Origin: Tetraselmis striata
Lineage: Eukaryota; Chlorophyta; Chlorodendrophyceae; Chlorodendrales; Chlorodendraceae
Length of the DNA stretch: 64,000 bases
Direction of reading: 5' to 3'
Assembly (NCBI GenBank): GCA_006384855.1
Contig: VCJN01002224.1
Location: 1 to 64,000, forward strand
Part shown: piece after piece, positions 35,778 to 61,646 of the stretch
How the letters are laid out: each line of letters begins with the position of its first letter
Position numbering within the stretch: position 1 is the stretch's first letter
Notes under the pieces: model-generated
The model's input: the letters and a program-made list of their open reading frames with translations, nothing else
Told to the model about the DNA's origin: nothing
The model's database searches: none
Program-made: the position numbers and the translations under genes

Positions 35778-37160
35778 GTTGAGTCTGGTTTTGCCAAAAA
35801 GGTCGCGCAGGCTGTTTTACACGGTCAAGAGCCGAAATTGGCAGGAAGGTAAAGTGAAAGCGTGGAGGGAAAACGGAGTCGCGGGGGCGATGCGTGTAAC
35901 GCAGTGAAAACTGGAAGATAGCAGGCTTAGCTGTTATGGCCGCTTTTATGTCTACTCGTGCTGCACCCAAAAAGGGCGCAATGACAGGTGCCTAGTTCCC
36001 GTACCACTGAGCAGCACTTGTAGCCGAAAAGCGGTTAGGTCAAGGGAGGAAACCCCATAAAGTAGTTTAGATCATTTCAAAGCTGAGTCTGGTTTTGCCA
36101 GTCATGAGCGAACGGAGAGAGCGGTGGGTTGACGGAGAAGGGGTAGCGCCAGGTCATGAAGGAGGCACCGGGAAGGCCACCGCTGCGGAGTCATGTTGGA
36201 CTTGGAAGTTGCTGAGGGGCGCGATGTGGCCAACGAAGAACCACGCGCCATGTGTAGGAAGAACGTTGGGGTCGATGTAGTCCAGAACGACGTCGGAGTT
36301 AGTGGCCCAGCCGCCTTGGTAGCGAATGTGGGACAATGGAGCTCCGATGGCGTTAGCGGCAGACGCTGCTCCCTTGCGAAAGCTGTGTGAGGTCCATGAA
36401 GTGCCGGCGGGAGGGGCAGCACCGAGGGGCAAGACGGACGACGGTTGCAGTACAGAGCGAGTCCGACATTGTAGCGGCGGTCCAAGATTTGGACTGCTCG
36501 CTTGGGGTGACCGGCCAGAAGTTTGTTTCAGCCCAGGCAACATGAACCTGGGGGGCAGACTGTACGTGGTCGATGAAGTGGTGCAGGAGACGTGCAACGC
36601 GGGGGTGTTCTGACACGGGAAGGACCAACACATGCATGTCGTCAAGACCCCGTCGGCCAGCGCGACCTTTCTCGCGGTACACATGCAAGGTAATGTTGTA
36701 ATCGTCGACATGCACATCCCGCACTCGGCATGACACGGCAGTAAGTCCCATGGCAAAGAACATGAAGTTGACAACCGAGGCCAGCACGAGGGCTCGGAAG
36801 TGGTACCGGTACTCTGTGGTGGGAGCAGACACGATAAACTCGGCCCGCTCGACGTAGATGTAAGCTACATCAGTAGGTAGAGGAACTCGTAAAGGGGCAG
36901 CCTCTAGGCGACGCTCCCGTAGCATCAGCCCATACCGAGCTGCAATAAGGTGCAAGCTGTCCTTGGCGATCGTCGAGGGTCGAGGATGTGTAGCTCGAAG
37001 AACGTGTTGATTGCAGACAGGTAGGGCAGCAACGACTTAGCCCCAATGTGCCCCCGCTCACCAATCCTGGCAACGTACCGGACGACAGTAGCAGTGGTCG
37101 CCTCCAGCAGGCTGATGTTCTCGGAGTCGTGGCAGAACTCCGCGAACTGGGAGAGTCTGC
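35778..37160 (-). mobile_element. Truncated second DIRS-type element (3' end)
   Basis: A 19-bp motif ending GAGTCTGGTTTTGCCA occurs at about 35779-35797 and 36080-36098, about 300 bp apart. A decayed recombinase gene abuts the second copy. This mirrors the B2-A2-B1-recombinase order of the intact element at 2513-4090. The element is cut at 37160, where the LTR retrotransposon begins. Confidence 0.6.
36101..37160 (-). pseudogene. Degenerate DIRS tyrosine recombinase
   Basis: Reading three frames in turn recovers FAEFCHDSENISLL and LLPYLSAINTFF from the N-terminal domain, FRALVLASVVNFMFFAMGL and SCRVRDV from the catalytic part, then SHSFRKGAASAANAIG (H-x-x-R box), YQGGWATNSDVVLDYID with the tyrosine. 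At least two frameshifts (near 36430 and 36960) break it, and the N terminus is cut off by the adjacent LTR at 37161. It is clearly homologous to, but diverged from, the recombinase at 2917-4090. Confidence 0.8.
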
Positions 37161-38169
37161 TGCCGCGGCATCTGTCATATCCGCGTGCGCATGAAGAACG
37201 GGACAGCCAAGCCCTTCCGGGTCGGCTAGGGTTACAAGTAGGGTTCCATACCCGGTTGAGACCACAGGCAGGGCACCTGATTGGTTAAGGTTCCATACCC
37301 TGGCCATAACCCTGAGCGGGGCGCAAGGAGACATACCCGAGATCAGAGACCCGCCCAAGCACACCTCGGCGGGACTTCTAAGGGAACTCAGATAGTACCT
37401 CTAATCGGGACATGTAACTGGGACCCCTAAGGTAGACTACCTGCAGAAGACGAAGTATTGTACTGCTGCTGGTACAAGGCGCAAGACTCACTGTAGCCGC
37501 GGCCGAGTAGTAAGAATTAGTAAGGATTATATGACTTAATGAGTACAACTAGACAGGGGCATTGCGTAATGCGTCTATCTGGCGCGCGGTGCGCGCACGG
37601 CACGCGTGCGATTAGCACTTAGCGTGACGTGCGGCCGCCTTGCCATGGCCGCGATCGCGTGCTTATAGAGGGCCTCCGCCTTCATGCGGTCCCTCTTTCC
37701 CCTTGTCTTGCCTATGTGTGCCTGTGTTTGCCTATGACATGCATAGGCAAGAGCATGTGTACGGGACGGAGACGGTGTAAGAGACGGAGATCGGCTTGAG
37801 GAACGAGGGCCAAAGGTAACCACGGTAGCCTGCGCGCTTGTCGTACGGTCGCACGCATGCTGCTCGCTGCATCGTGCGCGCGCGCTGGTGGTGGTGCTGG
37901 GTTGTCACCATTCGACGCGGTACCGACGTAACGTACTGATAGTGTGATCGGTAATTAGCTGCCTTAGTATAGGCAGTATTGTTGGAACGGTTGCTAGCCG
38001 CAACCAACACTGCATAAAGTACTGCACGGCGTGGCGGTGACCTGTGGTGAGAGGCTTTATTGCCACTGGCATTCACCCCCCTGAGTACGGGCAAGACCAA
38101 CACCGCTGGTCTGAACTAAAGCCCTATAGGCGTCTGAGAGGTGCCTATAGTGACTTAGGTTCGCGTTCA
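37161..38169 (+). repeat. 5' LTR
   Basis: About 1009 bp, starting TGCCGCGGCATCTGTC and ending CGCGTTCA, with TG...CA ends. It aligns along its whole length to 57052-58017. No convincing tRNA primer site follows directly. Confidence 0.8.
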
Positions 38170-38538
38170 GACAAGGGGGAAGAGCTCTCGTGGGTGAGAG
38201 TGAGTGCTAGAGGTGAGGAAAGGTCTAAGGGGTGTTGGAGACAAACCTATATGGGAACTGCTCGTAAGAGTACATAAGACTCGAAGGGTGAGGGGACAAA
38301 ACCCACTAGAGGTTGGGCCAGGAAGGCCCTCGGACTAGTGAGGTGACGAGGTGTGGAGTGATTCGAGTTTCCTTTTGGGTTTGGTGACGAGCGAGAGGCA
38401 AAGGGTTTGCCACCTCTGGGGACACTTTGTGTTTGTGCTTGAGCGAGCCGTGAACAACGAGGCATTGAGTGGGCGAAGGGCACTAACGCCAAGCTAAATG
38501 TGTTGCTGAGTGGCCCTTTCACCCGGCGCGGCCTCTGA

Positions 38539-43767: not shown

Positions 43768-44312
43768 ATGGGTTCCCCCTTGCGGGCTATACACGAACTT
43801 CGCGCTGCACTTGGGGAGGTGCGGGAACTCCTTCAAGATCATGAGGGAATGTTGAGTAGGAAAGTTCTTCTCGAGATGGCAACAAGTTGTACGGGTCTGC
43901 CGTCGGGCGGCCCGTCTCCTCGCGTGGGGCAGCCTTGCGTGATGTTGCGACCTTGGAAGAGTCGTTAAGGGGGAGTGGCCAGCGCCCCCCTGCGTCTTTG
44001 GCCGAAGTAGTGGCGTCTGAAGAGGGTGCCGCAGGCAGCCCCGGTATGCAAAGCAGCGCTAAGCGTTCCGACACGGCAATTGCAGGGGGCACACGGCCCA
44101 CCCCGGCTGGGGCTGAGGTACAACCACACCATATCGGTCACTGGCTTCCTGCCGAAGACGGCCACACTGAATATGCCGACTACAAAGCGGTCAAGTCGGT
44201 AACCTCAGGCCTCCCTACTAATTGGCGGTTCTTGTATGACTCGGCGGCTACAAAGGTATGCTGCCCCTCGTCAAATTATTTCCGCGTGCCGGTGGCAGTC
44301 ACCTGCGGTTGA
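43768..44312 (+). CDS. Unidentified frame in the Mutator-like element
   Basis: Starts MGSPLRAIHELRAALGEV, a helical, coiled-coil-like segment, and continues in another frame with REVATLEESL-like and LPAEDGHTEYADYKAVKSV, NWRFLYDSAATK. One frameshift near 43890 separates the parts. No family is recognised. It could be the N terminus of an element-encoded protein whose remaining exons are lost in the satellite array. Confidence 0.3.
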
Positions 44313-44319
44313 ACCAACG

Positions 44320-45500
44320 GATACATTGCAGCAAGGCCGCCCACCTTGCGACTGGCGTCGCTTCTTTTGAGGCCGGTTGCGACTATGCGGCAGCAAGGCG
44401 AGGGGGTACGTCGCTCGTGCAGCTAGCAGTCGGGGGGATGTGGGTAGGTTGAACGCGCGATGGCGACATAAGTAGCAAGCCATAAAAATGCAAAGGTGAA
44501 CAACATCATTATGTCGCAGCAAGGCCGACCACCTTGCTTGGCGATGTGCGTCGCTTCTTTTGAGGGCGGTTGCGACTCGTTGGCGGCGGGCGAGGAGATG
44601 CGTCGCGTGTGCCAGCTTTTGCACTCGGGGCTGTGGGTCGAATGTGCGATGGCGACATTATAATTAGCAAGCCGAAATCTGAAACAGCCCAGGATAGCCT
44701 TACCTCGCAGAAAGGCCGCCCACCTTGGCGACTCGCGGCGCCTCTTGCAAGCCGGCTGCGACTCGTCGGTAGCAAGGCGAGGGGGTGCGTCGCTCGTGCC
44801 AGCTTTTGCACTCGGGGGCTGTCGGACGAACGTGCGATGGCGACATAATTAGCAAGTCGGAAACTAACTAAAACAACCAAGCATAGCCTTACAGCATCGC
44901 AGTAAGGTCACCGACCTTGGCGACTCCCGGCACCTCTTGCGAGCCGGCTGCGACTCGTCGGCAGCAAGGCGAGGGGGTGCGTCGCTCGGGGGCTGTGGGT
45001 GGAACGTGCGATGGCGACAAAATTAGCAAGCCGGAAACTACAGTAGCCTATAACCCATAGCCTCACATCACAGCAAGGCCGTCCACCTTGGCGACTGGCG
45101 TCGCTTCATTTGAGGCCGGCTGCGACTCGTCGGCAGCAAGGCGGGGGGGTGCGTCGCTCGTGCCAGCTTTTGCAATCGGGGGCTGTGGGTCGAACGTGCG
45201 ATGGCGACATAATTAGCAAGCCGAAAACAACAGAAGCCCAGGATAACCTTACATCGCAACACAACGGCCGCCCACCTTGGCGACTGGCGTTGCTTCTATT
45301 AAGGCCGGCTGCAACTCGTCGGCAGCGGGGGCATGGAGTGCGTTGCTCGTGTCAGCTCTTGCAGTCGGATGCTGTCGGTCGAACATGCTATGGCGACATA
45401 ATTAGCAAGCCGTAAAAATACAAAGGTGCACCACAACATTATATCGCAGCACGGCCAACCCCCCCCCCTTCCCACCCTGCCCTCCATCCCGCCTATTCCG
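44320..45500. repeat. Satellite array 1, about 190-bp units
   Basis: Six units share GCAGCAAGGCCGCCCACCTT, GGCGACTGGCGTCGCTTC, GAGGCCGGCTGCGACTCGTC, AGGCGAGGGGGTGCGTCGCT and GATGGCGACATAATTAGCAA. Frames running through it are repeat artefacts. Confidence 0.9.
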
Positions 45501-45801
45501 CATCTCTTACAATGGGCATGGTGGTTGTCGCGCCTTTAGCCTCCGAGCCGCTGGCATCCGGCACGCCCTCACCCCCGCCTAATGCGAGCGCAAGTCCAGA
45601 GAGTGTGGCTGCCGACGCGCCGGCTCCTTGCCCGCCGCTCTCCCCCGCGTGGCTATCGCCAGGCGTAGGCAAGCCCTCGGCCGCATCGCCAGCGGCAGCC
45701 GCCAAACTCGGCGACATGTCTGCCGCTGGCGGGCCCTGCCCCTGCTGACGCGCCACTGCATGCGTATCGGCCCAGCTAGGTCCAATGGCCAGGGCCGCCA
45801 C
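45493..45801 (-). pseudogene. Duplicate of the 47837-48448 frame
   Basis: Encodes the segment around GPPAADMSPSLA, GESGGQGAGASAATLSG and SGSEAKGATTTMP, nearly the same as the C-terminal part of the frame at 47837-48448. It is evidence for a higher-order duplication of about 2.4 kb (satellite array plus this block). Confidence 0.55.
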
Positions 45802-46101
45802 GCGACGATTGCGTTTGGCATGCGGGTCAGGAGCAGCGCCGCGAGGGGGTTCGTCGCTCGGGCTAGCTTCTGCGCGTGGGGTCTGCGGGGGCCAACGTGC
45901 GATGGCGACTCAATTAGCATGCCGTAAAAGTAACAAGTGCGCAACGGCAACAAAGGTGCAGCGGGTCCAACCCACCTTGGCGACATGAGGCGCCCCTGTC
46001 GAGGCCGGCTGCGACTCGGGAGCAGCGCTTCGAGGGGGTGCGTCGCTCGGGCAAGCCTCTGCGCTCGGGGTATGCGGGGCCAACGTGCGATTTCGACTCT
46101 A

Positions 46102-46557
46102 TTAGCGAGCCGTAAAACTAATAGGTGCGCAAGGGCAACACGTGCAGCGGGGCCAACCCACCTTGACGACTCGCGGCGCCCCTATCGAGGCCGACTGCGG
46201 CTCGGCAGCAGGCACGCGAGGGGGTGCGTCAACACGACTGCCATACAACACGACTGCCACTCCGAGTACCATGTCACCCAGGCGCGCATTGTCGCGTATA
46301 CCAACAGTAGGCGAGGATTGCTGCCCCAACCTTGTCGCTCCTTGCAAGCCGTCCACAGGGTTTGTTGTTGACTGAAGTTCGTTTCTGCGGGCGACAATGG
46401 GATTTCCTGCGACTACGACGAGTCCAGAAGGTGCCGGCAGTGCAGCCACCTTATCTATGACGGGCAATTTTGCATACATCACCAGGGTCTCAGGCTCCGC
46501 TGCGCCCGGCACCACTTCAGCGGTGCCCACCCCATAGTAGAGCTGGCCATCCTGCAC
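46102..46557 (-). CDS. Unidentified frame between satellite arrays
   Basis: The N-terminal half has protein-like composition and is unique in the element: MQDGQLYYGVGTAEVV, TLVMYAKLPVIDKVAALPAP, SGLVVVAGNPIVARRNEL. The C-terminal third is satellite sequence. No homology is recognised. It may be an exon of an element gene. Confidence 0.3.
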   Translation of the reverse strand: MQDGQLYYGVGTAEVVPGAAEPETLVMYAKLPVIDKVAALPAPSGLVVVAGNPIVARRNELQSTTNPVDGLQGATRLGQQSSPTVGIRDNARLGDMVLGVAVVLYGSRVDAPPRVPAAEPQSASIGAPRVVKVGWPRCTCCPCAPISFTAR

Positions 46558-46799
46558 TCCGCCCTCTTCCTCACGGCCGCGCTTGGAGCCAGCACCACCC
46601 TGCCCGCGTTTGCCCTTGCCTTTTCCCCTGTTTGCTTCTCCCGGCCTGCACAGGCGTCACCAAAGGATTGTGAGGGTCGTTCGGGCCTTTTGCAGCGGGG
46701 GCAGCGGGTGCGTCGCTCGTGCCAGATTTTGCAGTCGGGGGGTATGGGTCGGATGTGCGATGGCGACTACATAATCAGCAAGTCGGAAACTAAAAAACC

Positions 46800-47760
46800 C
46801 CAACATAGCCTTACATCGCAGCAAGGCCGCCCACCTTGCGACTGGCGTCGCTTCTTTTGAGGCCGGTTGCGACTCGCCGACAGCAAGGCGAGGGGGTGCG
46901 TCGCTCGTGCAGCTAGCAGTCGGGGGGGGGGGGGGGGTAGGTCGAACGCGCGATGGCGACATATTATTTAGCAAGCCATAAAAATGCAAAGGTGGATAAC
47001 ATCATTATGTCGCAGCAAGGCCGCTCGCCTTGGCGACGTGCGTCGCCTCGGTTGAAGCCGGCTGCGACTTGTCAGCATCGGGCGAGGGGATGCGTCGCTC
47101 GTGCAAGGTTTGGCACTCGGGGGCTATCGGTGGAACGTGCGATGGCGGCATTATAATTAGCAAGCCGGAAACTGCAAAAGCCTATCTTAACCTTACCTCG
47201 CAGCAAGGCCGCCCACCCTTGCAACTGGTGGCGCCTGCGAGCCGGCTGCGACTCGTCGGCAGCAAGGCGAGGGGGTGCGTCGCTTGTGCCACATTTTGCA
47301 CTCGGGGGCTGTGGGTGGAATGTGCGATGGCGACATAATTAGCCAGTCGAAAACTAAAACAGCCTAGCATAGCCTTACATCGACGCAAGGCCGCCCACCG
47401 TGGCGACTAGCGTCGCTTCATTTGAGGCCGGCTGCAACTCGTCGGCAGCAAGGCAAGGGGGGTGCGTCGCTCGTGCTTTGCAATCGGGGGCTGTGGGTCG
47501 AACGCGCGATGGCGACATAATTAGCAAGCCGAACACAACAGAAGCCCAAGACAACATTACATCGCAGCAAGGCCGCCCACCTTGCTTGGCGACTGGCGTT
47601 GCTTCTTTTGAGGCCGGCTGCAACTCGTCGGCAGCGGGCGGGGGTAGGGAGTGTGTTGCTCGTGCTAGTTTTTGGAGTCGGGGACAGACTGTCAGTCGAA
47701 CGTGTAATGGCGACATAATTAGCAAGCCGTATAAAAATGCAAAGGTGCACCACACTACCA
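46800..47760. repeat. Satellite array 2, about 190-bp units
   Basis: Five units homologous to array 1. The first units of the two arrays share private variants (for example GTGCAGCTAGCAGTCGGGG, and AAAAATGCAAAGGTG with AACATCATTATGTCGCAGC), showing that the arrays arose by one large duplication. Confidence 0.9.
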
Positions 47761-47836
47761 CAGCATTACACCACAGCACGGCCACAACCTCCCCCCCCCC
47801 CCCCCCCCCCCCGCGCCCCCCCGGCCTCCATCCCGC

Positions 47837-48448
47837 CTATTCCACAGCTCTTGCCGTGGGCATGGTGGTTGTCGCGCCTTTAGCCTCCGAGCCGCTGGCA
47901 TCCGGCACGCCCCCACCCCCGCCTAATGCGAGCGCAAGCCAACAGGGTGTGGCTGCCGACGCGCCGGCTCCCTGCCCGCCGCTCTCCCCAGCCTGGCTAT
48001 CGCTATGCGTAGGCCAGCCCTCGGCCGCATCGCCAGCGACAGCCAAGCTCGGCGACATGTCTGCCGCTGGCGGGCCCTGCCCGTGACCCGCCACTGACTG
48101 CGTATCGGCCCGGCTAGGTCCAACGGCAAGGGCCGCCACGCGACGAGAGCGTTGGGTGGGGGCACGTCCAGCAGACGCAGCCCTTGGTCGAGCGGGTCGG
48201 GCGGACCGGCTGGCAGACTCTCGAGAGGGTGGCCGCGTGCGGGGGGGAAGGGGGGGGTTGCTAGGCACCTCCATCGCGATGGGACCTACCCCAGCCTGCA
48301 TGGCAGTAACCGATAGCGTGAGCTGCAAGTCTCGCGACATGGCAGGGAATGCAGGGCAAGTAAGGCACAGGGACGCAGGGACGTAAGAGGCGGCAGCATG
48401 CCTACTCACCAGCCGTGCAGACCTACGCCGAAGGTAGGCGGAGTCCAT
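47837..48448 (-). CDS. Unidentified Ala/Pro/Ser-rich frame of the Mutator-like element
   Basis: A 203-residue frame starting near the right terminus and reading inward. It contains MSRDLQLTLSVTAMQAGVG, a Pro/Arg-rich middle and a Gly/Ala tail that is duplicated at 45493-45801. Its position suggests a first exon of an element gene. The function is unknown and coding status uncertain. Confidence 0.3.
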   Translation of the reverse strand: MDSAYLRRRSARLVSRHAAASYVPASLCLTCPAFPAMSRDLQLTLSVTAMQAGVGPIAMEVPSNPPLPPRTRPPSRESASRSARPARPRAASAGRAPTQRSRRVAALAVGPSRADTQSVAGHGQGPPAADMSPSLAVAGDAAEGWPTHSDSQAGESGGQGAGASAATPCWLALALGGGGGVPDASGSEAKGATTTMPTARAVE

Positions 48449-48810
48449 TCATGTCACGGATCCGGGCGTTCGCGCTATTTTGTGTAAGTTAAGACCCTGC
48501 ATGCCTGTGTCGCGTGGGATCCTTTCCTAAGAATAACTGTCTGCCACGGCCCGGTTTGGGTTTCTGGGCAGCCTTGGCGGTGGTGGAAAGGTATACCAGT
48601 AGCGACTAGTAGTACTGCGCAGCCGACCTCCACGAGTGGGCGGGATAAGGGATGGCGGCGGCGACGGCGAGTATACAGTACTTTGCGCTGTATATATTTG
48701 TCTGTAGTACATTGTTTGGCGCGCGAGCTAGTAAATTGTCCCATTTTCAGTGAGTCAAAAGAGAAGTATAGTGGCCTGCACCGTTTACGGTATAATATTG
48801 CCCTTTTCCC

Positions 48811-48819
48811 GTTCAGCAG
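48811..48819. repeat. 9-bp target duplication, right
   Basis: GTTCAGCAG, the partner of 43462-43470. Confidence 0.9.
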
Positions 48820-49223
48820 TACTAGCTATAATGTACACAAAATTCCCCAGTGTTACCAAATACGTACGGCTGCGATTTGCGCTCCCATGTACTAATAGTC
48901 GTAGTTATCCACAGGACGACTCGTCATCGCGCCCGGGTTCGTACTAGATACCCGGTACCGGCTTAATGAATATATCGCGTACTACCCGGTACTACACGGA
49001 CAACCTTGTACCTTATACGTCAGTGCCATGTAACACTTCACCGGGCTGGTACGACTACCAGAATGATGACAAAAAGGATTTATCGCCCGCCGGCAATAAC
49101 GCCGGATGTACTCGCACGTAACTGGATGGACGTGCCGCCACCAGCAGCAGCCTTCACGGATAAATAATAGTCGCTAGTAGTAGTGCTTCGTCACCCGTAT
49201 GTCACATCTGAATCTCACAGTGG

Positions 49224-51108
49224 ATGGAGCCGCGGAGGGGCAAGGGCTCCAGCGGGAGGCTGTGGGCGGGTCACGAGAAGGCGACCTCAGAGCACACGTT
49301 TGAGACGTGGAAGAACTCTACGGACTGTGCCATGGAGAAGGAGCAACAACAGGCATTCGACCGCAACAGACCGTTCAACGAGATCCACGAGGTTCACGTG
49401 TTGCGAGGCCGCATTCAGCCGAAGTACTTGGAGTCGCTAGAGACTATACTCATCAGCCGGGGCATCAAGTACGAGGACTCGAGGATAGTACAGAGGTTGA
49501 AAGGCGCAGAACGGCTCGACTACTACTACCGCCGGTTGTTGGACGGCATGTGGGAGGAACTCGTCAACATCACCGAGCAGATCGAGCTGCATTCGGAGCG
49601 GTACAAGTGCCATCGCTCGCCTGGTGAGACTGTGCGCGACTTCCGCAATCTGTTGCTAACGCACACTAGGGTCAAGAACCTGGTCACTGAGGAGACGACG
49701 CGCATTGTGGAGATATCGCGCGTCAACACGGAGTTCATCGCGCGGGCATGGGGCAAGACGCGTTTCAGCCCCTGCATCAAATTCGCGCAACAACAACTCG
49801 TGGACTACACGATGGACACCCAGGTGGACATGACTAAGGATATAGCTGAGTGGCTCGACAAGCAGGAGCGCGGCATCATTCACATAGGCGCTCACTCGCG
49901 CGTCCAGAGCGGAGGCGGCGGGCGCAGTTTTGACCACGAGGAGCACACGGCCTCGGTGGCGGTCGCGGCACCGACAGCCATGGTCGTGGAGGCAGCCACG
50001 GAGAGGGTGGCAACTACCATCGACGTGGAGGTGGAGGAGGTGATCGTAGAGGCGAGCGCACGGAGAGGAGCGCTTACGCCCGTGATGGAGATGATGGTGG
50101 GCAAGGCAGCCACGTCAATGAGGCAGGTTGCTGTGGTTGTGGGTCGAAAGATCACTACAAGAGCGACTGCCCTCTGTGGAGCAGACGTGCTCTGAGTGCG
50201 GCAAGAAGGGTCACATTGCCAAGCGTTGCTGGAAGGCCAACCCTGATCTCCGTCCGGAGACCGCCATGGCAGCAACCAATCCCGGGGAGCACATCAGAGT
50301 GCGCGAGGAGCCCAAGAAGCCGGACCGCAAGTCGTGCATGATGTGTGGCAAGGATGCGGGCCACACAACTGAGGAGTGCGGGAAGCTGCGCAAGTTCGTT
50401 GCGAACCTGCAGGCGACAGACGGCCACAAACCCAAGAACCCGCAGCTCAACGGCTATGCTCAAGTCGTCGGCGGCGAGGAGGGCAAGGTGGTGGGGTTGG
50501 CAGCCGCCAGCCAGTTGCGCCCACAGCGTAAGAGCACGGAGGCTCAATGGCCCACAGGCCATGGCGTCAACACGGTGCGCATGGAGGACGGAGAACGTGA
50601 GGCCAGGCAGCGGAGGCTGCCTCGCGGCTTCACCACCTCATCGATGGAGATGGCGCAGCAGATGCAGAGCCGTACAGAGCTGACGGCGAGGCTCACTAGC
50701 GCAACACCGAGCGTCACGGAGCTTGTGTCACTGGCCAACGGCGGTGGACAGCCGCGCATGCCGCTGATGGAGATCGCCAAGCGGCTGGTCAAGCACGAGC
50801 CCGTGGAAGATAGCTGGCAGAAGCATGCTGTCATGCGTGCTCTGGAGAGCAAACGAGTCTCCATCAGCTTGATGGAGGCTTACCAGCTCGAGCGCAGCGG
50901 CGGCGGGATGATGGAGAGCGTCATGGCAACAGCATGGGGCGGCGGTGCACTGAGTACCGAGTCGATCAGCAGCCACGCTCAGTCAGCCAGGACCTCAAGC
51001 GGGGAACGCGCCTTCGAGGCAGCGCTGATGACGGTGGAGGGGGTCGCTGACCAACAAAGCGGCGGCAAAGTCTACCGCGGAGGAGAAGACCGCTGGCGGA
51101 GAGGCTGA
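49224..51108 (+). pseudogene. Retrotransposon gag with three CCHC zinc knuckles, one frameshift
   Basis: The capsid-like part runs from TFETWKNSTDCAMEKEQQQA through YYYRRLLDGMWEELVNITEQ to SPCIKFAQQQLVDYTMD. Three knuckles of C-x2-C-x4/5-H-x4-C follow: CCGCGSKDHYKSDC, CSECGKKGHIAKRC and CMMCGKDAGHTTEEC. The first knuckle is in a different frame from the other two (shift near 50150-50200). The ATG at 49224 is only the point where sequence resumes after the CACTA insertion. The true start is upstream of 39365. The C-terminal part (to 51108) is Ser/Met-rich without known domains. Confidence 0.8.
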
Positions 51109-51120
51109 GACTGAACTGTC

Positions 51121-52038
51121 TTGCCATTTACCGGCCGGGTCAACTCGCGAGACAATGCGAGGAGGAGGAAGATCGCAAGCGCGCAAATGCGCAGCGTAAT
51201 GCCAGCATGGCGGTTGAGGAGGCATAAGTATGTCGCCGCAGCGGCAAGTGGGAACCCGCCACTGACTATCGACGAGGCAGACATCAGGGAGCAAGCACTA
51301 CGGCTGCCCAAAGGGTCTGAGACCCGACGCTGCCTGGAGCAGCAGGCGGAAGTCGCCAACAAGGGCATTTTTGCCCTTCAGCCCACGGGGGCTGAGGCGA
51401 AGGAGCAGCCGGAGACGGGTCGGCTTGACACCATCACGTGCGAGTTGCACGCCAACAACACCCTGCTGCAGTGCGAGACCATTTTCGACGGCGGCAGCAG
51501 CCACACCCGCATGAACGCGTCAGCGATGGAACCAAGCGCGGCGGAGGCCGTGGTGAAGGGCACTGGCGGGTGGTTTGACGTAGACATGGTGGTGGTGATG
51601 CTCGCCAATGGCAAGCGCTCATGCGAGCAGCAACGACGATTGCGGGATGGCGTGGTCTTCACGCTTCGGCCCGTCACCTCAATCATGGCAGCTCATCACG
51701 CACCGCGCGCGTACGAGAATGGAGGCGAGGCACCGGGCTTGTTGCTCGGTGGACCTACCATCACAGCCCTCGGGTTGCGCCCGGACCCGGCGACCAGAAT
51801 CTGCACTTTCCGCGCACCCAACCGACCAGCCGGCAGAGTGCCGCTTCTCAGTCAAACGGCGTGGGAGCAGCGGGTCCGCGAGCACCAACCTGTGGTGCGC
51901 GTGGAGAGAGCAAGCTACTGCCATGGGGTGGAGCTCGGCGATGATGAGATGGGGGAGGAGAGTGGGGGGGGGGGGGGGGGGGGGGGCAGTGACGTGTCTC
52001 ACAGCCACGCACGCCGCCCACGAACCCTCACGCCGTGA
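51121..52038 (+). CDS. Retrotransposon aspartic protease region
   Basis: Retropepsin-like: the active-site triplet is FDGGSSHTRM (usual form D-T/S-G-A/S), followed by an alanine/valine-rich strand and the LLLGGPTITALGLRPD block that matches the second psi-loop of Ty3-type proteases. It cuts the polyprotein in the virus-like particle. A G run (51965-51986) lies just before the stop and probably shifts the frame, as the following methyltransferase motif continues in another frame. Confidence 0.65.
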   Translation: MPFTGRVNSRDNARRRKIASAQMRSVMPAWRLRRHKYVAAAASGNPPLTIDEADIREQALRLPKGSETRRCLEQQAEVANKGIFALQPTGAEAKEQPETGRLDTITCELHANNTLLQCETIFDGGSSHTRMNASAMEPSAAEAVVKGTGGWFDVDMVVVMLANGKRSCEQQRRLRDGVVFTLRPVTSIMAAHHAPRAYENGGEAPGLLLGGPTITALGLRPDPATRICTFRAPNRPAGRVPLLSQTAWEQRVREHQPVVRVERASYCHGVELGDDEMGEESGGGGGGGGSDVSHSHARRPRTLTP

Positions 52039-52039
52039 C

Positions 52040-53115
52040 ATGCAAGAGTCCAAGACCTGCGAGCCGGCAGACCTACCGCCTTTGCGGGAGGTGCAGAGCC
52101 TGCAGCGTCACGGGCTGGCGAGACTGAGCACCCGCGAAGAGGGCATCAGCATGTACGAGCCATGCGGCGGAGGCTACGTTGCCGTGCTGAATGCCATGCT
52201 GGCCAACGGTCAAAAGGTGGCCAGATACCGGCATTCGGACACCGACCCGGCAGCCCGCAAGGCCGCTGGGCAGCGTGTTCAAGGACCTCAGTAGAAGATA
52301 TCCGGATCTACCACCAGCTAGCGCGATCAAGGGGTGGGACTCGTTCCCACAGGACATCACGGCGATCACGGCGGAGGACATGAGGCGCCTGCCATATACA
52401 TAGACATAGTGGGGTGTGGATGGCCCTGCCCAGACATGAGCAGAGCCAACCGCGACGCGCTGGGATTGTGCGACCGGAGGTCATGTTTGCTCTTTCACGT
52501 AGCCGCGTTCATCGAGATGCTCGAGGAGAAGCAGCCCACCGGCGTGGGGTGGTTGCTGGAGAACGTGGATACGAGCGAGGACGATAGACTGTACATCAAG
52601 GAGTCTGAAAAATACATCACGAAGATCATCGGGAGAGCGCTCGTGATTGATGAGGCGGGCTGTGGAGCAAATCATCACCGAGTGCGACGGTTCTGGACGA
52701 ACATGGGGGACGTGGAGAGGCTGAAGTTGGCGTGGGAGAAGCGGGCGGACATGCAGCCGCGACTGCTGCGAGAGGTGCTGCCACCGCACCTACGGCCGCA
52801 TGTCAATCTGCCGACACCACCCAACGGAGTTCGCGTCAACAAGCAAACCGGGGCAGCCACGCGCGTTGCCAACAATCTTGGCGCGAAAGGACTCAGATGC
52901 CTACTCCGGCGAGGGGGCCGGCATGTTGTTCAACATCAGCACGGGCACGTGGGAACGGCCCACTGTCCACTTGAAGGAGGAGCTTTTCGGTTACGAGCCG
53001 AACGTGATTCACGGCATACCGCTGCCGGACCATGAGCGCCTCGTTGGCAATGCCATGGGTCTGCACAGCGTCGCGTGGATCGTCGAGCAGCTCTTCGTGG
53101 AGCAACAGCGACTGA
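52040..53115 (+). pseudogene. Cytosine-C5 DNA methyltransferase (DNMT-like) domain in retrotransposon
   Basis: All landmark motifs of a DNA C5-methyltransferase occur in order. SAM-binding motif I is SMYEPCGGGYVAVLNAML with HSDTDPAARKA. The pre-motif-IV segment has FKDLSRRYPDLPPASAIKGW and DITAITAEDM. Motif IV has the catalytic cysteine in VGCGWPCPDMSRAN. Motif VI is LLENV, motif VIII is HHRVRRFWTNMG, and motifs IX-X are ILARKDSDAYSGEG, LFGYEP and ERLVGNAM. The layout resembles DNMT3-type enzymes. Three frame changes (near 52265, 52400 and 52860) break it here. It sits between protease and RNase H, where reverse transcriptase is expected. It would methylate cytosine in DNA, possibly the element's own copies. 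Confidence 0.82.
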
Positions 53116-53539: not shown

Positions 53540-53975
53540 GAAGGATCCTGCGAAACACTGGCGGTGCTGGCGCAGGAGGACGACGAACGACATGAGTACG
53601 TTACGTGGTGGAGTTTGCGAGCCGCACCTGCCAAGGCGCGGAGCCAAACTATGCCAGCTATGAGGGATGGTGCTGCGGGAGCTGCAGGAGCTCATCCACC
53701 AGCACTCCAAGCTGGAGCGCGTGGGCGAGAGCTTTCAGGTGTGTCGGTAGGGTGAGTGTCTTGCCATGTTGTATGGCATGGACAAGTTCGGATACTACCT
53801 GTTTGGCAGGCAGTTTGTGGTGGTGACGGATCATCGGCCTTTGGACTGGCTGATGAACATCGCTCAGCTTCGTGGGAAGTTGGCGCGGTGGGCGATGAGG
53901 CTCAGCGAGTAAGACTTCGTGGTTCGCTATCGGAAGGGCGTTCACCACGTCAACGCAGATTGTCTGAGTCGGGGG
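53540..53975 (+). pseudogene. Retrotransposon RNase H remnant (reverse transcriptase deleted)
   Basis: Recognisable Ty3-type RNase H pieces are VLAQEDDERHEYV, VEFASRTCQGAEPNYASYEG, FVVVTDHRPLDWLMN and VVRYRKGVHHVNADCLSRGP. The first catalytic TDAS block is missing: LKDPAK runs almost directly into VLAQ. Upstream, only about 420 bp separate this from the methyltransferase and contain no Y/F-x-DD or other RT motif. An in-frame TAA at about 53910 and frame changes add to the damage. Confidence 0.75.
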
Positions 53976-53979
53976 CCCG

Positions 53980-55410
53980 TGAAGGGCGACCCAACGGAGC
54001 TGGATGGGTGCGGTGAGTTTTCACCGGAGGGCACCGTGCGACATGCGGCAGCCTTTTGCTGCGCAACGGCTCAGAGCAGTCGGCAGCCGGAGCTGTCAGC
54101 GTGGGCACGACGCCGCGTGCTGGACACCGCCCATGAGGGCGCGGCCGACGGCGACTTGGTGGCGGTTACCGGCGAGCTGACGGCGGGACCGCGGAGAGGC
54201 GATCCGTGGATGGACGCGGAGGCGATGGCGGAGCTGCAGGCGGGCAACGTCAACATGCCGCGACCTTATGCCCGCTATACATGGAGAAACAACATCTTGT
54301 GGTGTTTACACAAGGACGGCACGCACCGCGAGGTACCGCCATCTAGTGGGCGAGACACCGTGATTATGGATGTGCATGTCAAGATGGGCCATGCATTTGG
54401 GGCGGGATCGGCTGCGCAGTATTATCGACGCTTCATATTTCTGGCCGGGGATGGTGGAGGATGTAGCCCGAGTCAAGAAGGCGTGTCCGGACTGCGATCG
54501 GCTGCAACATCGACCCGGCGGCACCAGCGGCCGCCCAAAGGCAGCCTCGCCGCTGGACATGCAGCCGCTGCCGCACTTCGGCATGTTCTTCCGCTGGCAC
54601 TTGGACTTGGCGGGGCCTTTCGAGGCCACCCGCAATCGCAACGCCTGGGTGCTGGTGATGGTGGAAGCGGCGAGCAAGTGGGTGGAGTTGGTGCCGCTGC
54701 GCACCAAGGAGGCAGCCAACATACGACAAGCCTTTCAGGAGAGAGTGCTGGCGCGTTTCGCGGCGCCCGGCGAGGTGTGTACCGACGGCGGTACCGAGTT
54801 CAGCGGCGAGTTCCACGAACTTCTCGTGGAGCATGACACCGATCATCCGAAGCCGCTGCCCTATCATCCGCAGCCCAATGGGTTGGCGGAAGGGATGGTG
54901 AAGACAGTCAAGGAGGCACTGATGCGCTATGTGGTTCAGCCCGGCAAGCGTGTCGTGTGGGGCACTTTTCTGCCTTCCATCGAGCTGGGCTACCGGTGCA
55001 GCAAGCAAGCCAGCACCAGGTACAGCCCATACGAATTGGTGTACGGCAGGGCGCCCGTGTTTCCCGCGCAGGCGAGAGCGCTCTTTGAGGAGAGCGCCGT
55101 GGACTTCAACAACCCGGAGGGCATGTGGGAGCGGATGACAGTGCGCGTGGAGCGTTTGGCGCTCATGGTGCCGACGGCGATGCACAACGTGGAGGCGGCG
55201 CAGCATCGTGAGGTGATGCGCTATCGCAGGAGGCGCGCGGGGTTGGTGGCGCCCGGAGTGCAGCGCTTCAGCCCCGGCGACTTCGTCTACGTGCAACATC
55301 GGCAGCAAGACGCGCTCGATCCACGAGTGCGACCGGCTGTCTACAAGGTTTACGAGGTCAACGACAACGGAGTGGTGGTGCCGCCGCGCAGGGTGCAGTG
55401 CCGCGTGTAG
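53980..55410 (+). CDS. Retrotransposon integrase
   Basis: Contains the HHCC zinc domain (HVKMGH near 54375, CPDC near 54490, in two frames separated by a shift near 54400-54440). The DDE core follows, with D in WHLDLAGPFE, D in VCTDGGTEFSGEF and E in NGLAEGMVKTVKEAL, and then SRYSP-like YSPYELVYGRAP. A C-terminal SH3-like part has FSPGDFVYVQHRQ and VRPAVYKVYEVND before the stop at 55410. It joins cDNA to chromosomal DNA. From 54370 to the stop the frame is open, so the core is intact. Its position after RNase H assigns the element to the Ty3/gypsy type. Confidence 0.88.
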
Positions 55411-55932
55411 GGCTCGACCGAACCCTAGCACACCCTAGGGTCTCTCTGCCCTAGAATCTCGGGGTGGTAGGGTCTCCATACCCTGACCACCTGCCCTACC
55501 CACCTCGTGTGGGTACCACATATATTGCCCAAGAATGCTCCATTTGGACATGTGGCACTAGGAGGAATTGAACCATGATCTCTTGGCTCAAAGCCGGGGT
55601 TTGCCGTCGCGTGAAGCCCTAGTGTAAATTCTAGGGCTTCCGGAGCCCTAGCGTGTGCTAAAACCCCCACCACGAGGGGAGTTGTGACGTCACAAAAACC
55701 TAAGATACCATAAGGAGGTGGTTGAAGGTTCTCCCCCAGCGTGGGAGTTTTGGCACACGCTAGGGCTCCGGAAGCCCTAACCTTCACTCTATGGCTTCAC
55801 GCGGCCCTAGCCTCACGCGACGGCAGTGGTCATCCAAGGAGCTGATGGCGACACGGCGCGCGTGCGCGTTGAGGAGATGGCGCGGTGCGCCGTTCCATAC
55901 GTGGTATTGCCGGCATGATTTGAAGACCGAAT
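55411..55932 (+). other. Noncoding spacer with primer-site-like and inverted-repeat sequences
   Basis: Between integrase and the PHD ORF. It is rich in CCCTAG repeats. The 22 bp at 55553-55574 begin TGGCACTAGGAGG and end TTGAACC, which is the form of a sequence complementary to a tRNA 3' end. It follows GGACA by two bases, as a primer site follows an LTR. Inverted repeats GGGCTTCCGGAGCCCTAGCG (near 55640) and CGCTAGGGCTCCGGAAGCCC (near 55760) can form a hairpin with a 100-bp loop. Confidence 0.5.
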
Positions 55933-56937
55933 ATGGCGTGCGAGGAGTGTGACGGGCGCGTCAGCACCCAGCGCAACCCGATCATCATCTGCGAAGACTG
56001 TGAACGAGGCTGGCACAAGATGTGTCATCAGCCACCTGTGGCACGTGTGCCGCGGGGGGCATGGCGGTGTGCGGAGTGCAACGCTGATGACGCAGCGTTG
56101 CCGGCACAATGGACATCGGTGGTTTTAGCCGCCACAACAATCACTGACAACGACGACAGCGACGAGGAGATTCAAGGCCCTGCCCCGCCTTTGCAGCCGA
56201 CAAGAGCGGCGGTGGCAGCAAGACTGAACTGGGGCATGCCTGGCGCCTGGCACCCAGGAACTGTGACGAGAACGATGAACAACCTTCAAGCCGCCAACGA
56301 CTATCTGCCGGCGATCAGTATCCAAGTGAGCGAGTACGCTCCGCTAGCCAACATGATAAGCTGGCGCAGCCGAGTAATCTTTGGTCCGTGGGCGGGACAT
56401 GGCAGCACCGCTGAGGCCTTGCGGCCGTGCGGCGCGACAGTGATCAACAACGACTTCAACCCAATGTACCAAACTGAGATGTGCGAGGACGCGCTGGAGT
56501 CCTACGTGTACCAGTGCGCTCGCGATGTAACAGCGACCGTGGCGACGACGACGATGACGACGACGACGATGACAACACAGCCGCGGTTGGGGGCCCCTTT
56601 CGTTGTGGTGACCTCCCCGTGGTTCCAACTACTTGACATGGCGCTGCCAATCATGGCGTCATGCGCATACATCCTTTTCGTGCAAGTGCCAATCTTCTAC
56701 ATCGCGCAGGGACCTTCCCCGCGCATGCAGTGGCTACGGCGTCTAGGCGACTGTGGGCGGCTCCACATTATTGCCGGCGACGTGCAGCGTAACCGCACTA
56801 CGCGCCGATCAACTCTGTGGCTAGCGATCTTCCGCGACAACGAGCTGCAAGAGCGAGAACTGCGAGCTGAGTGGCGTCACTCCGTGGCATCAATTCACTT
56901 CCACACCGAGGCGTGCGCTGGCGACCAGCATCATTGA
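55933..56937 (+). CDS. PHD-finger / SAM-methyltransferase-like protein of the retrotransposon
   Basis: An open 334-residue frame inside the LTR element, between integrase and the 3' LTR. Residues 3-50 form a complete C4HC3 PHD finger: CEEC, CEDCERGWHKMC with the C-x2-C-x4-H-x2-C spacing, then CAEC. PHD fingers read histone H3 tails. From about residue 140 a class I methyltransferase-like fold appears: IFGPWAGHGSTAEAL (motif I-like P-x-G-x-G), VINNDFNP (acidic loop), FVVVTSPWFQLLDMAL (motif IV-like, S-P-W-F instead of N/D-P-P-Y/F/W), and LHIIAGDVQRNRTTRRSTLW. That layout is like DNA amino-methyltransferases of phages and DIRS elements. The SPWF form leaves catalysis uncertain. The middle has a Thr-rich repeat (near 56535-56580). 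Confidence 0.65.
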   Translation: MACEECDGRVSTQRNPIIICEDCERGWHKMCHQPPVARVPRGAWRCAECNADDAALPAQWTSVVLAATTITDNDDSDEEIQGPAPPLQPTRAAVAARLNWGMPGAWHPGTVTRTMNNLQAANDYLPAISIQVSEYAPLANMISWRSRVIFGPWAGHGSTAEALRPCGATVINNDFNPMYQTEMCEDALESYVYQCARDVTATVATTTMTTTTMTTQPRLGAPFVVVTSPWFQLLDMALPIMASCAYILFVQVPIFYIAQGPSPRMQWLRRLGDCGRLHIIAGDVQRNRTTRRSTLWLAIFRDNELQERELRAEWRHSVASIHFHTEACAGDQHH

Positions 56938-56994
56938 GTGTCAATTGGCACCCAGCGGCCGCTCACCCTTCGGGCAAACAACCGTTCGGGGGGG

Positions 56995-57051
56995 CCGCCC
57001 ATTGAGCTGGTGACAGCACCCCACGCGGGAATGCGGGCATGCGACGGCGGC
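56995..57051. repeat. 57-bp direct repeat, left of 3' LTR
   Basis: Contains CCGCCCATTGAGCTGGTGAC and ends GGGCATGCGACGGC. It recurs at about 58030-58086 on the other side of the 3' LTR with one substitution. It is absent beside the 5' LTR. Confidence 0.8.
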
Positions 57052-58017
57052 TGCCGCAGCATCTGTCATATCCGCGTGCGCATGAACAACGGGGCAGCCA
57101 AGCCCTTCCGGGTCCGCTAGGGTTACAGCTAGGGTTCCATACCCGGTTGAGACCACAGGCAGGGCACCTGATTGGTTAGGGTTCCATACCCTGGCCATAG
57201 CCCTGAGCGAGGCGCAAGGAGACATACCCGAGATCAGAGACCTGCCCAAGCACACCTCGGCGGGACTTATAAGGGAACTCAGTTAGTACCTCTAATCCGG
57301 ACCTCTAATTGGGACCCCTAAGGTAGACTACCTGCAGAAGACGAAGTACTGTACTGCTGCTGGTACAAGGCGCAAGACACATTGTAGCCGCAGCCGAGTA
57401 GCAGTATATGACTTAATGAGTACAACTAGACAAGGGCAGTGCGTAATGCGTCCGGCGCGCGGCGCGCGCACGGCGCGCGCGCGTGCGTTTAGCACTTAGC
57501 GTGACGTGCGGCCGCCTTGCCATGGCCGCAATCGCGAGCTTATAGAGGGCCTCCGCCTTCTTGCGGTCCCTCTTCCCCCTTGTCTTGCCTATATATGTGT
57601 GCCTGTGTTTGCCTATGACATGCATAGGCAAGAGCCTCTATACGGGACGGAGACGGTGTAAGAGACGGAGATCGGCTTGAGGAACGAGGGCCAAAGGTAA
57701 CCACGGTAGCATGCGTGCTTGTCGTAAGGTCGCATGCGTGCTGATCGCTGCATCGTGCGCGCGCGCTGATGATGGTGCTGGGTTGTCACCATTCGACGCG
57801 GTACCGACGTAAAGTATTGTAGGAACGGTTGATAGCCGCGACCAACACTGCATAAAGTACTGCACGGCGTGGCGGTGACCTGTGGCGAGAGGCTTTATTG
57901 CCATTGGCATTCACCCCCCTGAGTACAGGCAAGACCAGCAACGCTGGTCCGAACTAAAGCCCTATAGGCGTCTGAGAGGTGACTTAGGTGACCTATAGTG
58001 ACTTAGGTTCGCGTTCA
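57052..58017 (+). repeat. 3' LTR
   Basis: About 966 bp in direct orientation with 37161-38169, from TGCCGCAGCATCTGTC to CGCGTTCA. It has several indels relative to the 5' LTR, for example a 36-bp gap near 57820. Confidence 0.8.
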
Positions 58018-58086
58018 GAACCTCGAATGGGATGGGCCGCCCATTGAGCTGGTGACAGCGCCCCACGCGGGAATGCGGGCATGCGA

Positions 58087-58424
58087 CGGCATTGCAAATG
58101 AACCTGCAAGATGGGTTTTACGCGGTTGGAGTCTTCCTTGAGGACATGGATGTTGTCACTGTCGATTACCGTGGCACTCTGTACGGACTGGCTGGCCTTC
58201 CCATGGGCTGGTCTCTGTCCCTCTATTACTTGTGCCAATTCACCAACGTCCTCACTAGGGCATTGCGTCGTACCCCGGCTAAATGAAGCGCCACACCTAT
58301 TCCCCGGCGCCGATTTGGCCGACGCATGTTGCCCTACATGGACGATTTCCTGTTTCTAGCTCGGACTACTCAGGCTGAGGCCATCTGGCAACGTGACTAC
58401 ATCGAACGCCACCTCTCGGGATTT
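58087..58424 (+). pseudogene. DIRS-type reverse transcriptase fragment
   Basis: Short piece with NLQDGFYAVGVFLEDMD, RGTLYGLAGLPMGWSLSLYY and, in another frame, YMDDFLFLA, the polymerase active site. It starts abruptly after the 57-bp repeat and is cut at 58425 by the CACTA-like element. It lies on the plus strand, opposite to the recombinase relic at 36101-37160, so the two need not come from one element. Confidence 0.75.
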
Positions 58425-59099
58425 CACTGTGAGATTCAGATGTGACATACAGGTGACGAAGCACTACTACTAGCGACTATTATTTATCCGTGAAGGCTGC
58501 TGCTGGTGGCGGCACGTCCATCCAGTTACGTGCGAGTACATCCGGCGTTATTGCCGGCGGGCGATAAATCCTTTTTGTCATCATTCTGGCAGCCCGGTGA
58601 AGCGTACATGGCACTGACGTACAAGGTACAAGGTTGTCCGTGTAGTACCGGGTAGTACGCGATATATTTATTACGCTGGTACCGGGTATCTAGTACGAAC
58701 CCTAGTCGTCCTGTGGATAACTACGACTATTAGTACATGGGAGCGCAAATCGCAGCCGTACGTATTTGGTAACACTGGGGAATTTGCGTACATTATAGCT
58801 AGTACTGCTGAACGGGCCTGCCAGCCGTCCGATCAAAGGTCATCAGATGGGCGGTTTGGCTGCCATGTTTTGCCAAAGAGTGCTCACGTTACATAAATAT
58901 TCGCGAGGGGGAGGGCGGGGGCAGGCAGCGGTTTGCCGAAGAATGATTGAATTACAATATTCGCGACAGCTACCATCGGGGAATGTGGCCCGGGGGGGGG
59001 GGGGGGGGGGGGTGCGGGGGCGGGGGGACCACGCCCGCCCCGCCCCCCCCCCGCCCCCCCTCGCCGCCAGCCGCTCCCGCCTGGGGGGGGGGGGGGGGG

Positions 59100-60128: not shown

Positions 60129-60149
60129 GTCTAGTCTCCCGTTAGTCTG

Positions 60150-61275
60150 TGCACCGCAAGTGCACTCCGCAAGCCTCGCCTCCATCCGCGTCGGAACCGG
60201 TAGTAAGTGTTGTTGTGTGCGCACATCGTGACAACATTACACGGTGGCAATTGCAATTATTAGCGGTGGATAATGTGAAGGCGTTTTCGAAATCGACAGA
60301 GAATGTGGCGGTGCTGGCGGAGTGCATTGGCGGTGCACATAATAGCGTGTTGCTGGGGTTTTGGCTGCATCGGACGCCGTATTCCCACCCATCCGGCACG
60401 GAATGTCCGGTTTTCACACATTTGTGTGTTAATAAAGCAGTGTGGATATTACGCGTCTTTTACGCCGGGTTGATGGGCATCCGGCGTCCGATGCACCCCA
60501 ATTATTTGCAGCACGCTACTCTACGCACCCCCAACGCACTCCGCAAGCCTCGCCTCCATCCGCGTCGGAACCGGTAGTAAGTGTTGTTGTGTGCGCACAT
60601 CGTGACAACATTACACGGTGGCAATTGCAATTAGCGGTGGACAATGTGAAGGCGTTTTCGAAATCGACAGAGAATGTGGCGGTGCTGGCGGAGTGCATTG
60701 GCGGTGCACAGAATAGCGTGTTGCTGGGGTTTTGGCTGCATCGGACGCCGTATTCCCACCCATCCGGCACGGAATGTCCGGTTTTCACACATTTGTGTGT
60801 TAATAAAGTGTGAATATTACGCGTCTTTTACGCCGGGTGGGTGGGCATCCGGCGTCCGATGCACCCCAATTATTTGCAGCACGCTACTCTACGCACCCCC
60901 AACGCACTCCGCAAGCCTCGCCTCCATCCGCGTCGGAACCGGTAGTAAGTGTTGTTGTGTGCGCACATCGTGACAACATTACACGGTGGCAATTGCAATT
61001 AGCGGTGGGTAATGTGAAGGCGTTTTCGAAATCGACAGAGAATGAGGCGGTGCTGGCGGAGTGCATTGGCGGTGCACAGAATAGCGTGTTGCTGGGGTTT
61101 TGGCTGCATCGGACGCCGTATTCCCACCCATCCGGCACGGAATGTCCGGTTTTCACACATTTGCGTGTGAATATATATAGTGTGAATATTACGTAGGCGT
61201 CTTTTACGCTGGGTGGATGGGCATCCGGCGTCCGATGCACCCCGAATCTCACCAACACGCTACTCTACGCACCCC
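60150..61275. repeat. Tandem array of three units of about 370 bp
   Basis: Units aligned on TAGTAAGTGTTGTTGTG start at 60201, 60575 and 60943, giving periods of 374 and 368 bp. Identity is very high. An 80-codon frame (VVVCAHRDNITRWQLQL, LLGFWLHRTPYSHPSG) is open in each unit. Since the unit length is not a multiple of three overall, continuous translation is not possible. Confidence 0.9.
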
Positions 61276-61646
61276 CAACGCATTCCGCCAGCCCCCCCTC
61301 TTTCCGCGCAGGTCCTACGTTCCATTGTATGTATATACATACGTACATGTACTGCTCCGAAACCAGCCCAAACTTAATGAGTGCACAAGTGTAAATGGGG
61401 GGGTGGGGGGGGGGGGGGGATGTGGCGGCGGGGCATCCACTCACACATACCCCGGCGATGCATGACAAATATTACATGCCGTGGCGGGTCGGCGGGCCGA
61501 CCCGGCGGGCCGACCCGGCGGGGGGGGGGGGGGGGGGGGGCGTCTATTCAACTACACGTGCGACAGTGTCGTTTCGTGGAGCAGTATATGTGCCCGGCCT
61601 CATTTATACCGCCCCCTACCTGCGCTGCATGGTCCACCCCTACGAA

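Follow-up and report, generated by a model that had tools for sequence, protein, structure and literature searches.

The window analysed here is a 64,000-nucleotide stretch of the genome of the green alga Tetraselmis striata (contig VCJN01002224.1, positions 1 to 64,000). It contains an open reading frame (ORF) of 334 aa at 55933-56937 (+), exactly as bounded in the original prediction, which described a PHD finger fused to a methyltransferase-like domain inside a retrotransposon. This ORF constitutes the C-terminal module of a Pol polyprotein that belongs to a gypsy-type retrotransposon family, one present in many copies in the Tetraselmis genome. Residues 3-49 (55939..56079, +) form a PHD finger. 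Specifically, they contain the C4HC3 zinc ligands and match the Pfam PHD family (PF00628, E 3.4e-7) at 30.6 bits, above the curated cut-off of 24, in agreement with the prediction of a complete finger. The nearest solved sequences are the PHD fingers of DPF3, MLL3, ubi-d4, ATXR5 and KAT6A, and the finger is probably histone-reading. The second part of the ORF (56314..56934, +) contains the strings PWAGHG, NNDFNP and TSPWF and is predicted to adopt a class I S-adenosylmethionine (SAM) methyltransferase fold; a Pfam scan of the ORF returned no family beyond PHD and left this part unmatched.

Domain order of Pol in related proteins and genomic copies

Pol consists of a DNA methyltransferase (DNMT) part, reverse transcriptase (RT), RNase H, integrase, PHD finger and the predicted class I SAM-methyltransferase-fold domain (MT domain), in this order. 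In what follows, P-numbers denote public homologous proteins and L-numbers genomic loci or copies. Those homologues that carry names belong to the JGI set Tetstr1, taken to be Tetraselmis striata. P0009 (1732 aa) contains PF00145, RVT_1, RNase H, H2C2, rve, PHD and the MT domain. P0018, P0020 and P0015 have the same order; in P0018 PF00145 is above the cut-off, and the listed matches of P0020 and P0015, which are predicted to start further downstream, do not include it. In P0022 the order is RT, RNase H, DNMT, H2C2, rve, PHD and MT domain. P0009, P0018 and P0022, in each of which PF00145 is above the cut-off, bear out the claim that one element would combine two methyltransferase-type domains with a domain of the chromatin-reader type. 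P0026 has no Pfam match to PHD. In the most distant relative, P0028 (30%), the PHD finger falls short of the Pfam cut-off and no match at E<=0.01 is to a DNMT, this domain being recognised by eye only. P0022, P0024 and P0026 contain an additional stretch, Tudor- or chromo-like by eye, between the PHD finger (or integrase) and the MT domain, and P0022 has a weak G-patch match elsewhere in the protein.

RT, RNase H and rve integrase follow one another in P0009, P0015, P0010, P0018, P0020, P0022, P0026 and P0028, and this order, together with the frames of the genomic copies, is that of a Ty3/gypsy Pol. The rve and H2C2 domains were found, and no tyrosine recombinase (phage integrase) is among the Pfam matches of the window or of the listed Pol proteins. 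The family therefore does not belong to the DIRS retrotransposon class, in which a tyrosine recombinase replaces the rve integrase.

A search of the genome (224 Mb, 2903 contigs) gave 134 match rows for the window ORF, including several pieces of single copies, and 120 of 945 first-look candidates were scored. Frames of at least 1750 aa occur in 16 of the 134 rows (counted by eye), one having two stops inside the match. Ten copies were fetched, a sample selected for long open frames that gives no genome-wide rate. Nine have a single uninterrupted Pol frame of 1767-1771 codons, running from DNMT through the MT domain; in the tenth the frame is interrupted once. The predicted position of the ORF between integrase and 3' long terminal repeat (LTR) is partly retained: in nine of the ten copies it follows the integrase and ends shortly upstream of the 3' repeats, but the window copy is not flanked by LTRs.

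If the ORF were a host gene in its own right next to an unrelated retrotransposon, this would account for the ATG that the window ORF has to itself after a stop and an insertion, and for relatives of the MT domain that stand alone elsewhere in the genome with no PHD finger in frame. The Pol frame that runs from integrase through PHD finger and MT domain in nine of the ten copies, and also in single proteins of other sources, contradicts this explanation, as do the multicopy matches (134 rows, some being pieces of one copy); its chance of being right is negligible.

The gag-pro frame upstream ends within the DNMT domain, at motif I, and the Pol frame begins with the remainder of this domain (L021-L030). 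Specifically, the gag-pro frame ends with ...QGAQ in nine of the ten copies and earlier in L024, and it overlaps the Pol frame by 101 nt in the seven printed copies; P0009 starts near the same point. A frameshift seems to be built into the DNMT domain.

Fold, conservation and proposed role of the MT domain

A first structure model, made from the window ORF itself with a shallow alignment, was poor (predicted local distance difference test score, pLDDT, 46) and was kept out of fold searches. The fold evidence comes from the predicted model of one homologue, P0003, which is 90% identical to the window ORF and had a more diverse alignment. Structure prediction and fold search assign this model a Rossmann-like class I methyltransferase fold, in line with the SAM-fold pattern claimed for the second domain.

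The motifs of the domain are retained in most of the 20 genomic copies compared, which are the best-scoring of the 134 rows and give no genome-wide rate. The aspartate of motif I is present in 19 of them and replaced by glycine in the window copy (VIFGPWAGHG), where NNDFNP and TSPWF are intact. DPWAG is found in 18 of the 20; in the other two, G replaces D (window) and V replaces A (L020). DPWAG, INNDFNP, DAL and TSPWF occur all together in 17, L005 (TSPWL) being the third exception. DP.A, D, D.L and SPW are jointly invariant across the seven domains of alignment A5, which were chosen as intact with degenerate ones excluded; P0015, P0019, P0020 and P0025 are included in alignment A4, not in A5. 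Several distant lineages of elements retain the motifs of the fold, and others have lost them. The predicted fold and this conservation rule out a chance pattern as the origin of the motifs.

Sequence searches gave weak leads. The amino-methyltransferase profiles PF02086 and PF01555 produced sub-threshold matches only, phrog_799 matched a single member of the domain family (E 4.5e-4), and the named weak matches point to DNA methyltransferase families. A PDB sequence search with P0003 and profile A5 found no convincing match. The best match of profile A5 was a triosephosphate isomerase (E 0.027); E was 0.11 for a modification methylase and 0.33 for an N4-cytosine methyltransferase. A PHROG scan of P0001 and P0003 yielded nothing useful, and viral-contig scans with A2 and A5 gave 16 and 9 pattern matches, respectively, none of them confirmed.

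The ratio of nonsynonymous to synonymous polymorphism (pN/pS) among the 20 best-scoring copies, including the window, is 0.20 for the MT domain, 0.15 for the PHD-MT linker and 0.33 for the PHD finger. Among the 16 long-frame copies of this set the values are 0.22, 0.05 and 0.67, with 0.52 for the 400 codons upstream. Counts for PHD finger and linker are small, and the selection signal on the MT domain is therefore suggestive rather than decisive.

The MT domain also occurs alone, in other multicopy repeats of the genome, with 36-40% identity to the window ORF. Stand-alone types include, among others, one of 273 aa and one of 231-232 aa, neither with a PHD finger in the same frame; examples are L045 4526-5221 (+), L046 3536-4645 (-), L041 2038-2730 (+) and L042 163-981 (-). 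These relatives keep the motifs DPCSG/DPCAG, SD and TSPWF. L045 and L046, of the 231-232-aa type, align in three blocks, 0.7 kb at 93.9%, 2.9 kb at 96.3% and 2.8 kb at 93.5%. In the L045/L046 repeat, tblastn with eight gypsy Pol proteins matched the MT domain and no other part of Pol. Pfam gave no useful match for ORFs neighbouring the stand-alone repeats; those beside the L045/L046 domain resemble, by pattern, a transposase of the Mutator-like element (MULE) type and a Ulp1-type protease.

These data suggest the following account. The PHD finger, placed behind the integrase like the chromodomains of chromoviruses, would tether the integration complex to nucleosomes whose H3 tails are in a particular state. 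The domain at the C-terminus would be a base-amino (N6-adenine or N4-cytosine) methyltransferase, which together with the DNMT may modify the complementary DNA (cDNA) of the element or its insertion site. A new copy so modified might resemble host DNA, or escape silencing or degradation. Taken jointly, the identity of the ORF as a Pol module, tethering by the PHD finger and a base-amino methyltransferase working with the DNMT are somewhat better than evenly probable.

Several observations weigh against this account. Several gene models of the public Tetraselmis annotation, namely P0004, P0005, P0006, P0010 (which represents 53 sequences) and P0013, skip half of the PHD finger and motif I, as though a GT...AG intron were removed; P0009 and P0018, however, conserve the skipped stretch, which favours a coding role for it. 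The linker is conserved as much as the MT domain or more, and the pN/pS values of the PHD finger, which reach 0.99 among six copies, rest on very few changes; selection on PHD finger or MT domain in particular is for these reasons not proven. The usual motif IV of amino-methyltransferases is [NDS]PP[YFW]; here it is SPW[FY], which makes catalysis no more than putative. The motifs are degenerate in P0015, P0019, P0020, P0025 and P0027, and P0023 stops directly after the PHD finger, indicating that some lineages dispense with catalysis. Finally, RNA- and DNA-methylating enzymes tie in Z among the fold neighbours of the P0003 model, and the protein methyltransferase Mtq2 is close behind (Z 12.4).

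The degenerate motifs and a motif IV with SPW in place of SPP would be consistent with a pseudo-enzyme, in which the methyltransferase fold serves the integration complex as a structural or DNA-binding component and the PHD finger does the targeting. Four of the five degenerate proteins (P0027 being the fifth) are still alignable across the domain. Against a pseudo-enzyme stand the joint retention of motifs in the seven intact A5 domains and in 17 of the 20 genomic copies, and we consider it unlikely.

The closest solved folds include KsgA/Dim1, ErmC' and METTL5, level with M.TaqI, and could instead indicate that the domain methylates RNA, e.g. adenosine in the element transcript or its primer. 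The named weak sequence matches to DNA methyltransferases argue against an RNA target, as does the DNA methyltransferase-type domain that the element already encodes, and we regard such a target as quite unlikely. Methylation of protein, e.g. of histones near the insertion site, is highly improbable: the named profile leads are DNA enzymes, and no histone methyltransferase is among the 50 fold matches listed for the P0003 model, although this does not exclude one. A base-amino methyltransferase acting on DNA remains the preferred reading.

Element ends and the window copy

Outside the window copy, the layout of the element is A1 (~955 bp), a leader of ~1.2 kb, gag, Pol, B1 (57 bp), A2 and B2. 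There are no two identical direct LTRs. The order is A-coding-B-A-B with B on the right only, and this order, together with the inverted repeats around the window copy, rules out a conventional LTR pair. The element ends are TGCCG...CGGCA, i.e. of the TG...CA type. Six of the eight copies examined have an exact 4-bp target duplication (GTGT, GGTG, CGAC, GGAA, GGAG and TGTT), and one of these six has a single B as its right end; the other two are unscorable, one because its left end was not located and one because it is rearranged. Such ends and duplications fit integrase-type insertion, not tyrosine recombination. A1 and A2 are 95.6-100% identical in the six of eight copies in which both could be aligned, one of them rearranged, indicating recent transposition. 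L028 with L037 has the arrangement A1-coding-B, with a perfect 4-bp target duplication and no A2-B2.

The window copy is broken and capable of none of the proposed functions. It is enclosed by a terminal inverted repeat of ~410 bp, the left arm of which (48808..49222) is 92.5% identical to the reversed right arm (58425..58816); these long repeats are inverted, not direct LTRs. The gag-like region (49224..51108, +) has two overlapping frames (ORFs 49224-50195 and 50128-51108) and a zinc-knuckle pattern; zf-CCHC is sub-threshold (E 0.018), and the region is matched by DNA of genomic copies. The region at 51121..52038 (+) has no Pfam family and is presumably aspartic-protease-like from its DGGSS pattern. 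The end of the gag-pro frame (52130..52294, +) carries EPCGGG, which by eye against P0022 and P0028 we take to be DNMT motif I. The remaining DNMT domain (52260..53110, +; tblastn with P0009 and P0010) is broken and spread over more than one frame, with PF00145 sub-threshold (E 0.0013).

At the junction 53573..53602 (+), 376 Pol residues are missing, which span the RT and reach into the beginning of RNase H: P0010 residues 379-754 are unmatched in tblastn, a gap that takes in the whole RVT_1 match (468-637). The RNase H remainder and linker (53602..54392, +; P0010 residues 755-989) precede the H2C2 and rve core of the integrase (54370..55380, +), which is above the cut-offs of PF17921 (36.5 bits) and PF00665 (35.2 bits). 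An insertion of ~445 foreign bases with an internal inverted repeat (55381..55825, +), seen as a gap between tblastn pieces, splits the integrase C-terminus before its last 34 residues, and this tail lies in a different frame (55826..55927, +; P0009 residues 1381-1414). The window ORF, continuous with the integrase in other copies, is severed from it here by the insertion and a frameshift. Together with the missing Pol residues, further frameshifts and the altered motif I, this rules out a working element.

Downstream of the ORF lie repeat B1 (56992..57048, +), 98% identical to 58034-58090 and at the same position in ten genomic copies, repeat A2 (57049..58033, +), whose counterpart A1 forms the left end in other copies but is absent there from the window copy, and repeat B2 (58034..58090, +), which carries the element end ...CGGCA. 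Inside the inverted repeat the window copy is 5'-truncated. The enclosing repeat and 240 bp of its right flank recur at L022 9367-9996 beside other element pieces, and the gene model P0006 ends in the peptide encoded where the right arm begins. Between B2 and this arm, 58098-58424 holds a fragment of another reverse transcriptase, presumed from a YMDDF pattern. A further A repeat, 87% identical, lies at 37159-38171 and is followed by a leader start as in element 5' ends; we read it as a second element copy or its end. Dispersed and tandem repeat arrays occupy 44300-48200 and 60140-61310, with spacings of ~190 and 370 bp, and the array at 44300-48200 is common to L043 at ~67%.

Comparison with known systems

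Chromoviruses are gypsy elements with a chromodomain at the C-terminus of the integrase. The Tetraselmis elements resemble them in having a reader-type domain immediately behind the integrase and differ in that this domain is a PHD finger. No chromodomain is among the Pfam matches listed for the window, P0009, P0015, P0010, P0018, P0020, P0022, P0026 and P0028, and the elements are therefore not chromoviruses. M.TaqI, KsgA/Dim1 and METTL5, all solved adenine methyltransferases, share 3-13% sequence identity with the algal domain in the listed matches; the algal domain differs from them in its motif IV and in its fusion to integrase and PHD finger.

Retrotransposons are known to have captured DNMTs. 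Elements whose polyprotein contains, in addition, a PHD reader and another methyltransferase fold make self-marking and targeted integration directly testable in a culturable alga, and lineages with retained versus lost motifs offer a natural comparison. Tentatively, gypsy-type elements of green algae and their relatives may unite C5 and amino DNA methyltransferases and a histone-reading domain within a single Pol, and may share the amino-methyltransferase module with different multicopy repeats as a common kit for counter-silencing or cDNA marking.

Other retroelements carrying a methyltransferase are SymbioDIRS-Dnmt3 and DIRS elements with Dam-like adenine methyltransferases (de Mendoza et al. 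2018, PMC5890265). According to that paper they use a tyrosine recombinase, whereas the integrase of the Tetraselmis elements is of the rve type and their target duplications measure 4 bp. The same source describes A-coding-B-A-B repeats in SymbioDIRS and, in the legend of its Fig. 4, in KnitGypsy-Dnmt3, a DNMT-bearing gypsy element of Klebsormidium nitens; its discussion argues that DNMTs in Pol may methylate cDNA. The second methyltransferase-like domain of the Tetraselmis elements could have a like purpose and place a different mark. Judged against this published description, the Tetraselmis elements are KnitGypsy-Dnmt3-like, with a DNMT in the Pol frame, gypsy domains and a DIRS-style repeat order. 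In the Tetraselmis genome, DNMT motif I sits in the overlapping upstream frame. The sections covered mention no second methyltransferase in KnitGypsy-Dnmt3, and the main text of PMC5890265 contains no word starting with 'PHD' or 'Tetraselmis'. Literature searches, of which a part was aimed at other questions and which reached few subscription papers or bioRxiv preprints, likewise revealed, judged by titles and the starts of abstracts, no gypsy element with a PHD finger and a second methyltransferase. Thus, a DNMT in a gypsy Pol with DIRS-like repeats is known from the published description (PMC5890265), while the module of PHD finger and second methyltransferase added to it in Tetraselmis is, within the literature covered, apparently undescribed.
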